A DNA stretch of 29,450 nucleotides from a virus: IMG/VR virus record IMGVR_UViG_3300034093_000809, positions 1 to 29,450 of that record. One strand, 5' to 3'. Positions 19,482-26,293 of this stretch are shown one piece after another (the stretch's first letter is position 1; the number at the start of each line of letters is the position of its first letter). The translations under genes were made by a program, and so were the position numbers. Below the pieces are notes generated by a model, which worked only from the letters and a program-made list of their open reading frames with translations, ran no database searches and was not told where the DNA came from.

Positions 19482-20192
19482 TTATATTTCGTTATACATT
19501 TTATTGTAAATCGGCTTCAAATAGTCGATTCGTTCAATTATTTGTTCAATCGTGTTTTCATCGTATTGAATTTCGTATTTTTTTATTCTTTTTTCAATTG
19601 GTATTTGCTCAAAATTATGCTTTGACCTAACAACACGTTCCGCAATATCAAAAATTTCATCTTGTGAATAGCGTTCAAATTTTGGATCCGGCAACATTTT
19701 CCACGCTTCTTTATTGATTAGGTCTAAAACCATGCGTTCCGGCGTTGTTAGTAAAATATAAACTAATTCGGATTCCTTTTTGTTTGCAAGCCACATGTAA
19801 CTTTGCATTTGGTAATAATACGCTTTGTTTGTTAGTTGTTTTTGGAACCATGGGAACGTTTCCGCACTAAACGAGCATTTAATATCTGCTAAAACCGTTG
19901 GTGTTAAAACATCCGGTTCGCCGGTAATATAATCGTTTATCATGCGCGTTTTTGTTTCGGATACGTCAAACCAACCCAAAATGTTTTTGCAAATGTCAAT
20001 CGCGAGCGGTTCTAATTCAATTCCTTTTGATGTTGGCATGCTTGAAAAATCGCGTTCAATTCCGTACTTGTCAAATAATACGATTGCCTCTAATTCTTTT
20101 TTCGTTGTTTCGCTGATTAATTCCGATTTTGACCGCGGGTTTGTCATGATGGCGCCAACACCGGACGCCCGAATAATTAATTTATGTTTCAT
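19482..20192 (-). CDS. YqaJ-like PD-(D/E)XK exonuclease (236 aa)
   Basis: The active site of the YqaJ / lambda-exonuclease group is visible: RASGVGAIMT at 8-17, KGIELEP with E59, TGEPDVL with D94, ADIKCS with D103 and K105, and YYYQMQSYMWL at 125-135 as the Q-containing helix. It would resect double-stranded DNA 5' to 3' to give single strands for the ERF annealing protein encoded upstream. The SSB-like gene follows directly. A -7 box of the 26-bp promoter element lies 18 bases before the ATG. Confidence 0.9.
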   Translation of the reverse strand: MKHKLIIRASGVGAIMTNPRSKSELISETTKKELEAIVLFDKYGIERDFSSMPTSKGIELEPLAIDICKNILGWFDVSETKTRMINDYITGEPDVLTPTVLADIKCSFSAETFPWFQKQLTNKAYYYQMQSYMWLANKKESELVYILLTTPERMVLDLINKEAWKMLPDPKFERYSQDEIFDIAERVVRSKHNFEQIPIEKRIKKYEIQYDENTIEQIIERIDYLKPIYNKMYNEI

Positions 20193-20209
20193 TTTGCTTT
20201 GTTTTTATG

Positions 20210-20235
20210 CAAATATATTAATTTAATTTAATATA
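20210..20235 (-). promoter_or_regulatory. 26-bp promoter element, copy before the exonuclease gene
   Basis: The minus strand carries an AT-only stretch that begins TATATTAAATTAAATTAA and ends in the -7 box TATATTTG (20210-20217). It matches the copy at 26044-26069 at 24 of 26 positions. Transcription would begin around 20204, just before the exonuclease ATG at 20192. Confidence 0.6.
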
Positions 20236-23032: not shown

Positions 23033-23953
23033 TTAATTGTTTTTTCTGTTTGCAAATTCTGGTTGATCCCAATAATTAAGACAATAGTATTGATATTTTT
23101 GGACATCCAAATAAAATTTATAAATACCGGTTAATGCAACGCCTTTTGGCTTTGCCTTTGCAATTCTAACATGCAATTCGTTATCCTTATAATAACCCGT
23201 TTCATTTTCTGCAATACCGCCCGGCGGACGCCATAACGTTAAAACCGCTAAACCTTTTCTAAACCAAACTTGCCCGCCGGCTAAATCGCGCGCGGATGGG
23301 GGCGGATAATACGTAACGCCGTCTTTTGTTATGGGCGATTGGTCGCGAACATGCGTAATAATACAATTATGCCGGTTCAATTTACGCGCGTTTTTTCTAA
23401 CTTGTCCCAATATTCGGCTCAAATATTTGTCCTCACGTCCCAAATCGGCGGTTTTGTAATCCTCAGTCAATTCATTCCATGGATCAATTAACGTTGTATG
23501 AATGCGCATGCCGGTTTCAATTTCTATTTTATCCACTAAATCGTAAAATTTTTCAAGCGTTAAATCTTCATTTACCGGGTCAATAACAACAAAATGCTCG
23601 TTAATAAAATATTCAGCTTTTGCCCGTTCCATTTCATCCATTGCGTTGTTTCCTTTGATGAATTTTTTACCAATGTATTTATGGCATAATTCTGAAAAAA
23701 TATCTTTTGCATCCCCGGTTTCCGGTGAATAAATAACATGATTCCAACCGTACAAACATGACAAGTTAATAAGGATTTCAAACCAAAATTCAGTTTTACC
23801 AGAGGCGGGCGCGGCTCCAATGTATGTTGTACAACCTAATTTCACGGTGTACGGGAAGCGTTCCCAATCCCAACCAACCAAAACCCCGCGTGCGTTTCCA
23901 TGTTCCCGCAATGCGTCCAATTCTAATTTAACATTTTCTAATCTTTTGTACAT
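23033..23953 (-). CDS. RecA-fold replicative helicase, DnaB-like (306 aa)
   Basis: The start is the ATG at 23953, sharing one base with the initiator stop (TGATG). The RecA core is complete: Walker A YIGAAPASGKTEF near residues 45-57, then HVIYSPETGDAKDI, Walker B TTLIDPWNEL near 153-162, and a NCIITHVRDQSP segment near 197-207. It lacks the DnaB N-terminal domain and resembles single-domain SF4 helicases of phages. It follows the initiator, so the pair probably opens and unwinds the origin. No primase domain is visible. Confidence 0.88.
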   Translation of the reverse strand: MYKRLENVKLELDALREHGNARGVLVGWDWERFPYTVKLGCTTYIGAAPASGKTEFWFEILINLSCLYGWNHVIYSPETGDAKDIFSELCHKYIGKKFIKGNNAMDEMERAKAEYFINEHFVVIDPVNEDLTLEKFYDLVDKIEIETGMRIHTTLIDPWNELTEDYKTADLGREDKYLSRILGQVRKNARKLNRHNCIITHVRDQSPITKDGVTYYPPPSARDLAGGQVWFRKGLAVLTLWRPPGGIAENETGYYKDNELHVRIAKAKPKGVALTGIYKFYLDVQKYQYYCLNYWDQPEFANRKNN

Positions 23954-24627
23954 CAATCAAATATTATTGGATGAAATGCCATTATTTTTTTTGGTTTATC
24001 GGTTAATGTTTCATCATTCCAACATTGACCATTTAACCATGTAAGCGGGTTTTTACGAAATTTTATTTCTGGGGTTGCGTTTTTGTATTCCGTTGCTTTG
24101 TCAATTATCAAATCGAATAATTCCGGATTTATTTTTAAAAACGCTTTATAACATTTTGAGCGATCAACTTTTTTATCGTATGCATTCCAAAATTGCGCGA
24201 AGTAAAAATCAATATCATTGTTAATTGGTGTATTTGTATTATTGTTTATTTGTTTATCTATACTAACAATGCTTTTAACTTGCTTTGTCCCGTGCTTTAT
24301 AATTGCTTTATCAAGTGCTTTGTTAGGTGCTTTATCAAAATTTGATAGGGCAATAATGTTTGAACTATATTGATTTTTACTTTTTTCAATCAATTCAACA
24401 AATCCAAAATTTACTAAATCATTAAGGGTTTTAATGAACGTGTTATAACTTCTTATTCCAATCGCTTCTTTTGACATGGTTGTTGGTAATCCAAATTTTG
24501 ATTTCCAACCTAATCTGTTGCAATGCTCAATAATAAAAAAATAAAGTGCGGTGTGATTAGGATTTATTTTTTCTGGGTTTTCAAAACTCCAATCAAACCA
24601 TTTCCGGCTTAAATCGTATACGTTCAT
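23953..24627 (-). CDS. Winged-helix replication initiator (224 aa)
   Basis: The ATG at 24627 is chosen; a GTG at 24675 would place the start inside a leader hairpin. Residues 22-95 form a winged helix (HTALYFFIIEHCNRLGW, TTMSKEAIGIRSYNTFIK, LVNFGFVELIEKSKNQY). A low-complexity linker (about 95-138) leads to a C-terminal domain with FWNAYDKKVDRSKCYKAF and FRKNPLTWLNGQCWNDE. This is the standard design of phage replisome organisers, in which the origin is often in or near the gene. The start region is preceded by an exact duplicate of itself 94 bases upstream and by a hairpin. Confidence 0.82.
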   Translation of the reverse strand: MNVYDLSRKWFDWSFENPEKINPNHTALYFFIIEHCNRLGWKSKFGLPTTMSKEAIGIRSYNTFIKTLNDLVNFGFVELIEKSKNQYSSNIIALSNFDKAPNKALDKAIIKHGTKQVKSIVSIDKQINNNTNTPINNDIDFYFAQFWNAYDKKVDRSKCYKAFLKINPELFDLIIDKATEYKNATPEIKFRKNPLTWLNGQCWNDETLTDKPKKIMAFHPIIFD

Positions 24628-24721
24628 TGTGGTTGTTATTAAAGAAATAACCCCCGTACGAATAGCCACAACCACGAGGCGTTTTCAATACGAGGGTTAA
24701 TATAAAAATTCTTTGCTTCAT
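24593..24721 (-). CDS. Possible leader peptide overlapping the initiator start (42 aa)
   Basis: The ATG at 24721 lies in the same 17-base context as the initiator ATG (the AATAACAACCACAATGA repeat) and about 12 bases from the predicted transcript start. The 42-codon frame (MKQRIFILTLVLKTPRGCGY onward) crosses the leader hairpin and ends 32 bases inside the initiator gene in another frame. It has a basic-hydrophobic start and a Gly/Tyr/Asn-rich end. Translation could control folding of the leader and thereby initiator expression. It may also be a chance frame. Confidence 0.4.
   Translation of the reverse strand: MKQRIFILTLVLKTPRGCGYSYGGYFFNNNHNERIRFKPEMV
24624..24640. repeat. 17-bp direct repeat at the initiator start
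   Basis: TCATTGTGGTTGTTATT is identical to 24718-24734. It covers the initiator ATG and the 14 bases before it. Its 8-base core GTGGTTGT is the reverse complement of 24668-24675. Confidence 0.92.
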
Positions 24722-24734
24722 TGTGGTTGTTATT
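24718..24734. repeat. 17-bp direct repeat at the leader start
   Basis: This exact copy of 24624-24640 lies 94 bases upstream in transcription order. It covers the ATG of the 42-codon leader frame. Confidence 0.92.
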
Positions 24735-24738
24735 TATG

Positions 24739-24746
24739 CAAATATA
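24739..24746 (-). promoter_or_regulatory. TATATTTG -7 box of the initiator promoter
   Basis: TATATTTG followed by CAT on the minus strand matches TAnnTTTG. It shares the AT-rich upstream sequence of the 26-bp element only loosely. A start near 24733 would place the first 17-bp repeat at the very 5' end of the message. Confidence 0.55.
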
Positions 24747-26141: not shown

Positions 26142-26210
26142 CAATTACCTAAAAATACAAAAAAAGGCTTTGAATCGAACGATTCTTGTTAGTCGAAATG
26201 TAAATATAAC

Positions 26211-26281
26211 GAAAAAACCCCAACATTTGCGGGGTTTCTTTTACCTAATTGATTGCGTCAATCTGTGCTTAAAAAAAAGAG
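26211..26281 (-). ncRNA. Possible small RNA of about 70 nt after the lysis genes
   Basis: A TATATTTG box lies directly after the lysis-gene stop and a terminator lies about 50 bases further on, with no start codon of a supported gene between them. The product would contain a run of eight U near its 5' end, a small hairpin (ATTGA/TCAAT, 26248-26262) and the terminator stem. This could equally be a chance promoter match in the tail of the lysis message. Confidence 0.35.
26212..26237 (-). terminator. Terminator after the lysis genes
   Basis: AAACCCC pairs with GGGGTTT around a 9-base loop, and six T residues follow on the minus strand. It lies about 60 bases after the stop of the lysis gene at 26295. 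Confidence 0.87.
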
Positions 26282-26285
26282 TATT

Positions 26286-26293
26286 CAAATATA
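26286..26293 (-). promoter_or_regulatory. TATATTTG box after the last lysis gene
   Basis: TATATTTG begins two bases after the TAA of the lysis gene. A TTG lies 21 bases upstream (26315-26317), within the spacing seen in Bacteroidota promoters. No supported gene follows before the terminator, so it would only serve the possible small RNA. Confidence 0.4.

Follow-up and report, generated by a model that had tools for sequence, protein, structure and literature searches.

The leader in front of the replication initiator gene in a 29,450-base virus fragment (IMG/VR record IMGVR_UViG_3300034093_000809; "the window" refers to this whole stretch) is probably a transcription attenuator with a kissing-loop lock, one member of a family found in phages of Bacteroidota-type hosts. 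Every part of it is on the minus strand. A -7 promoter box of the Bacteroidota type, TATATTTG (24739-24746), is followed by segment A (ACAACCAC, 24723-24730), the 5' partner of the predicted loop-loop pairing, and then by the 5' arm of a terminator stem (TAACCCTCGTA, 24689-24699), which is supported by RNA folding and by covariation at the same position in relatives. Segment B (GTGGTTGT, 24668-24675) stands in the terminator loop, and beyond it come the 3' arm of the stem (TACGGGGGTTA, 24648-24658) and a U-rich tail (TTTCTTTAA, 24639-24647) that is weaker than in most relatives. A second copy of A, here called segment C (24629-24636), lies one base upstream of the initiator ATG, and B is complementary to both A and C. 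A sequence-only reading had drawn attention to the duplicated start region and the complementary segment between its copies; comparison with relatives now points to something larger than this original finding, namely a new family of kissing-loop attenuators in the early operons of these phages.

A search with the initiator yielded 26 viral relatives, and the regions upstream of their genes show one recurring anatomy: the promoter box, a 5' hairpin with A in its loop, a spacer that often contains AAAGAARTT, a strong hairpin with B in its loop, a T run, and then the operon's first gene, be it the initiator itself or a small gene ahead of it. B is the exact complement of A in these relatives, and the sequences of both change from phage to phage, for example CATCTGAC/GTCAGATG in contig L009, GGCTTCAC/GTGAAGCC in L014, CCTTCGAC/GTCGAAGG in L006 and GTGGAACG/CGTTCCAC in L022. 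The family was extended by a wider protein search and by DNA pattern scans that left A and B free, and the leader element is present in at least 100, indeed well over 100, viral contigs or leaders, with at least three subtypes and at least 79 distinct A strings. Among isolates, it is carried by Flavobacterium phage FL-1 (L290:2436-2546) and Polaribacter phage Danklef_1 (L289:5518-5623). Several contigs hold two elements whose pairs differ (L068, with GTCTTCAC and CGTCTGAC; L021; L134; L171).

A strict scanner gave 142 unique matches in 4.77 megabases (Mb) of real sequence versus 26 in 2.41 Mb of simulated sequence, and some of its weak AT-rich matches are chance. Matches to the type III pattern in L304, L328, L335 and L359 resemble group I intron loops and were left out. 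Because the leader sequence is so variable, BLAST searches against isolated phages and plasmids recovered almost nothing besides FL-1. In bacterial chromosomes, the type I model was found in one of 21 genomes with related initiators and in one of 301 Flavobacteriaceae genomes; as far as this model reaches, with its limited sensitivity and with types II and III not searched, the leader appears essentially not to be a host riboswitch. Longer variants, in which A and B are 75-90 nucleotides (nt) apart, were observed at L035:2868, L085:2845, L086:2595 and, about 500 nt upstream of the initiator, in L024; those of L085 and L086 share a common frame with different pairs (GTTTGACCA and CTGAAAC), and these variants are possibly a fourth subtype.

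Selection on the A/B pairing is evident from type I and type III leaders. Forty-five type I leaders were aligned without structural guidance and with the window excluded. Over the eight A/B pairs, 98.9% of cells are standard pairs, versus 72.9% after shuffling and 25-46% when the partner is slid, and 97 cells have changed on both sides, a number reached in none of 500 shuffles. RNAalifold, run unguided on the type I leaders, returned exactly the A/B helix. A and B of the same leader match over 5-10 bases (median 7-8), whereas swapped pairs mostly match over 4-5. In addition, the window-independent model R1, built from type I leaders, has the window leader (24746-24640, minus strand) as its best match (E = 2.3e-5), and the match includes segment B.

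The type III set, 35 leaders defined by the pattern GAGTAGAG[B]CTCGAAA, gave a consistent picture. Its A/B segments are 100% paired, with five of seven pairs covarying and no G-U pair; the terminator stem is 99.6% paired, with covariation at seven of eight pairs, and the 5' hairpin is 99.3% paired, with covariation at all four (4/4). The predicted type III geometry is that of two 8-nt loops kissing over seven pairs. When type III leaders were gathered without any promoter requirement, TAnnTTTG was found no more than 45 nt upstream of A in 39 of 53 (random rate, 3.4%), mostly 9-10 nt from A, and a U-run was present in 48 of the 53, with the start codon mostly 4-14 nt behind it. The covariation, the promoter box and the U-run together argue for an RNA element with its own promoter and terminator and not for a DNA-binding array, and the compensatory change in related phages that the sequence-only reading had named as its own check is present in both sets. 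Comparison shows the promoter box, A/B pairing and terminator stem and, in the relatives, the 5' hairpin around A. The B loop of the type III terminator hairpins (L134:3569, L303:4306, L391:9420 and about 50 more) is also flanked by an internal loop, GAGTAG / CGAAA, that does not vary and resembles the loop-E (sarcin-ricin) motif; several such hairpins precede NUMOD4-HNH endonuclease genes.

Within the window, most of what had been described from the letters alone stands, with corrections. The direct repeat, given as 17 bases at 24624-24640 and 24718-24734, is real and is 18 nt long (TTCATTGTGGTTGTTATT, 24623-24640 and 24717-24734); repeats of at least 17 nt within 200 nt were absent from all 200 Markov simulations of the window, and the real window has this one. 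The complementary segment between the copies is likewise present, ACAACCAC occurring three times (minus strand, 24629-24636 and 24723-24730; plus strand, 24668-24675). However, an 8-mer found twice with its reverse complement in between arises about twice per simulated window, and therefore the pairing segment carries no meaning from the window sequence alone; the A-B-C triplet was rejected as window-only evidence, and the significance of the pairing segment comes from the relatives. The 11-pair stem with one G-U pair exists, with its second arm at 24689-24699, but its first arm lies at 24648-24658 and not, two bases off, at 24650-24660. The plain fold of 24735 to 24600, which had been suggested as a check, is not significant (z = -0.97) because such a fold is unable to hold a kissing pair, and the leader alone folds better than its shuffles (-23.5 kcal/mol, z = -2.24). 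The 5' hairpin around A is probably absent from the window, since promoter bases would be needed to form it.

The leader anatomy consists of a promoter, a stable stem with a U-run and then a gene. Because the genes sit just behind the conserved terminator, with little room for another promoter, this arrangement argues well for attenuation, and the A/B pairing would alter how often the terminator works. We propose that RNA polymerase would start at TATATTTG and make A, and that 40-50 nt later the terminator hairpin would present B in its loop; as the operon's first gene begins only a few bases past the U-run, read-through would be its sole route to expression. A more tentative proposal is that the stopped RNA of about 95 nt acts in trans: its B loop would catch the A segment of later transcripts, and could do so before the next transcript's own B exists. 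Such an operon would limit itself, and transcripts of other specificities would go unrecognised. B could block translation as well in the window and the few relatives where the extra copy of A covers the start region. For the sign of control, our preferred guess is negative feedback by the stopped RNA.

The turnover of the loops is suggestive of the trans step. Among leaders with near-identical flanks (difference up to 0.2), divergence is 26-27% in A/B but 1-12% in the 5' hairpin and 8-21% in the terminator stem; a purely internal helix has no reason to outpace its neighbours, unlike a recognition code that several molecules share. In 79 close pairs of type III leaders, which are not independent of one another, A is identical in 30 and differs by two to four bases in 49 (by three in 42), with no pair differing by one base. 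More tentatively, such lock-and-key leaders could be widespread in Bacteroidota phages, with one of its own for each early operon. A terminated leader RNA would recognise a nascent leader only if the two had identical loop pairs of 6-8 nt; the output of the operon would then be set by feedback, and phages of one specificity would silence each other on co-infection. Under such pressure loop pairs would be replaced rapidly, as with immunity or with the incompatibility groups of plasmids, although here the determinant would be encoded on the sense strand. Provided that the pairing acts in trans, phages would have an RNA-based means of telling self from non-self, and the leaders would offer a ready set of orthogonal RNA switches. 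A heavily covarying RNA that is absent from Rfam and precedes several unrelated initiator families is in any case a piece that was missing from the picture of early gene control in phages of the Bacteroidota, a major phylum with little-studied phages.

Several points weigh against the attenuator with a trans-acting lock. No alternative antiterminator stem that would engage the terminator arms came to light, which leaves no evident route from A/B pairing to termination. The close pairs behind the turnover comparison are, as noted, not independent. The window, lacking a transcribed 5' hairpin and having a weak U-run, may be a derived or weak member. The elements may come from many virulent phages (the type I model, as given above, was met in a single Flavobacteriaceae genome), so that prophage immunity becomes less probable. 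An integrase gene is present in Danklef (PMC8776804); no integrase family was found among the scanned proteins of the window, which is itself a fragment.

A rather unlikely reading is that the kissing pair acts in cis only: it would stabilise the terminator along with the 3' end of a short, stable RNA, or form a leader domain bound by a phage protein, with neither trans action nor switching. All helices can indeed coexist in one kissing complex in type III leaders, and the internal loop with its conserved AGUA/GAA bases (GAGTAG...CGAAA) looks rigid or protein-bound. A purely structural helix, however, needs neither the faster turnover of A/B than of the flanking scaffold nor its multi-base jumps, and the essential replication genes directly behind the terminator leave little room for a promoter of their own. 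Copy-number control of the kind known from pT181, R1 or ColE1, in which the opposite strand gives rise to a separate antisense RNA, would fit an attenuator placed before a replication initiator, as in pT181, but promoter boxes on the opposite strand occur in seven of 97 elements, at the random level of 7.2%, which makes this explanation very improbable. Hardly credible is a DNA element of iterons or initiator binding sites at a replication origin, in direct and inverted orientation, as the sequence-only reading had also considered. The repeat and its inverted copy do adjoin the initiator gene, a usual place for iterons. Nevertheless, A varies (GGTCTCAC, CATCTGAC, CCTTCGAC, GAGCAG) among phages with near-identical initiator N-termini and is thus not conserved with its cognate initiator, the identical layout precedes unrelated genes, and the covariation goes together with promoter, stem and U-run, as expected of an RNA.

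The bistable translational switch proposed in the sequence-only reading, in which B pairs either with A, leaving the start region free, or with C, covering it, is unlikely as the function of the leader, although parts of it survive. The element does appear to be an RNA leader whose loop segment pairs with the first copy, the pairing being kept by compensatory change, and a choice of B between A and C would be possible in the window, where the two duplexes have equal energies (-13.0 kcal/mol each). C, scored when 6 nt or more of A reappear around the start of the first gene, recurs in six of 97 elements, the window included, versus a mean of 0.2 and never more than three in 2000 draws of A from other elements; it is exact in the window and equals the full 6-nt A in the type III leaders L010, L028, L258 and L277. 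In L046 and the related L299 it is partial (ACAACCAU), still pairs with B at eight positions and extends over the A and U of the start codon; A and C of L299 share one base change relative to L046 and the window. C is not accidental, yet it lies outside the common core, since the other 91 elements lack it and most relatives keep A, B and the terminator without it. Moreover, among nested folds of the window, B-C (-24.1 kcal/mol) falls 8.5 kcal/mol short of the terminator fold (-32.6 kcal/mol), with A-B in between (-28.6 kcal/mol), and therefore the translational switch would be only an added layer in a minority. That reading recognised a real stem but missed that it is an intrinsic terminator; because the terminator stem is the conserved core, the common function would be transcription attenuation rather than a translational switch.

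The 42-codon frame that had been noticed over the leader (24721-24593, minus strand) is present, as is the promoter box before it, but it is probably not a gene. Compared with its two closest relatives of the same subtype, the window shows 12-15 non-synonymous and 2-3 synonymous changes in this frame; across the three members of the subtype the counts are 11-15 versus 1-3, with the frame staying open and the B-loop block identical at the DNA level. An RNA constraint therefore explains the frame better than coding does. A leader peptide or conserved leader frame was rejected on these codon changes, and type I leaders also have no start codon at A.

The window carries portal, major head protein and terminase genes at low coordinates and, at high coordinates, a replication and recombination block that lies entirely on the minus strand. 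The gene that directly follows the leader (23953-24627, minus strand) encodes the 224-residue replication initiator, which matches PHROG 270, replication initiation protein (E = 4.9e-18). The next gene (23033-23956, minus strand) encodes a helicase-like replication protein with weak matches to the DNA primase/helicase PHROGs 239 and 18375 and to the DnaB-like helicase PHROG 243. A Pfam scan of the early proteins of the window gave no match, nor did a megablast search of the window region against isolated phages. Within the initiator gene, a perfect 16-nt inverted repeat was observed (24200-24215 and 24367-24382, arms 151 nt apart), and DNA repeats at 24281-24335 encode a linker at about residues 98-116 (SNFDKALDKALDKA..K..TKQ..S...SIDK) that is strongly conserved even where the C-terminal half of the initiators diverges. 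A second promoter-plus-start region at 20185-20225 (minus strand), with 80% identity to the promoter region of the leader (TATATTTGCATAAAAACAAAGCAAAATGAAA), directly precedes an exonuclease gene (PHROG 5715), and the A/B element is absent there. At 26207-26293 (minus strand), the TATATTTG box is followed after about 50 nt by a strong terminator (AAACCCCGCAAATGTTGGGGTTTTTT) with no gene between, which is likely a short non-coding RNA; similar promoter-to-terminator units (..AAACCCTTRCTTCGGTAGGGGTTTTTT) occur in L005, L006, L009 and L014, 1.7-1.9 kilobases upstream of the initiator.

Across the family, the genes directly behind the leaders encode replication initiators or helicase loaders of at least five unrelated families, namely the PHROG 270 type of the window and the DUF6291, DnaD-like phrog_2514, Lin1244_N and HTH_36/phrog_4707 types. 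Other genes in this position encode NUMOD4-HNH endonucleases, an MT-A70/ParB-like methyltransferase and an ERF annealing protein. In addition, the first gene is often one for a protein of 60-77 amino acids ending in LDK(S/E)TAIK(F/L)(A/S)K.LR (L015:4775-5008, L016:3276-3509, L136:7865-8077, L144:8552-8746 and others; the L015 copy is PHROG 33177), and this protein could be a regulator of the leader element.

Searches for a described counterpart returned little. Rfam gave no match at the gathering score in 12 sources, RF01695 included, and when E-values were relaxed for the window and one type III leader, no meaningful match appeared either; the passages covered of the structured-RNA surveys PMC2864571 and PMC8040213 held nothing alike. 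A full-text literature search found no description of such a leader, although most subscription papers lie outside its reach and an earlier description is possible. Among known systems, the CI RNA of phage P4 comes close: as summarised in PMC4825925, it derives from the leader of a replication operon, whose transcript holds its targets too, and its seqB pairs with seqA upstream and seqC downstream, which leads to early termination. The A-B-C order of the window matches this layout. In the present leaders, however, B lies in the loop of an intrinsic terminator, A is usually in the loop of a 5' hairpin and C is mostly absent; sites complementary to the middle segment both upstream and downstream occur in the window and five relatives and not in the other 91 of the 97 elements. 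The hosts are of Bacteroidota type, elements are repeated within genomes, and they also stand before genes with no role in replication. We do not assign the leader to the P4 CI RNA, given that the downstream site is mostly lacking and the terminator is intrinsic, and that any link to lysogenic immunity would be tentative.

Other likenesses are more distant. The c4 antisense RNA of P1 and P7 (RF01695) is also a phage RNA whose loops recognise complementary sites in the transcript of the same operon, but these sites are found farther downstream, in a region of their own within the antirepressor operon, with no pairing of a terminator loop within the same leader; c4 is among the RNAs listed in PMC2864571. 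The repYZ leaders of IncI/IncB plasmids (ColIb-P9, pMU720) resemble the present leader in that a loop pairs with a distant segment before an initiator gene, and in having a leader frame. Their pseudoknots, however, switch translation on, and an antisense RNA encoded on the opposite strand counteracts them, whereas here the partner is a terminator loop and antisense promoters are not enriched. Attenuators of the pT181 type share the conditional terminator directly before the initiator gene, but the leaders described here show neither an enrichment of countertranscript promoters nor an alternative antiterminator stem. Pseudoknots are also contained in the folds of the ZTP (pfl) and fluoride (crcB) riboswitches. 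In contrast to these, the pairing segments of the leader are without a conserved ligand pocket, and A and B vary freely while continuing to match each other.
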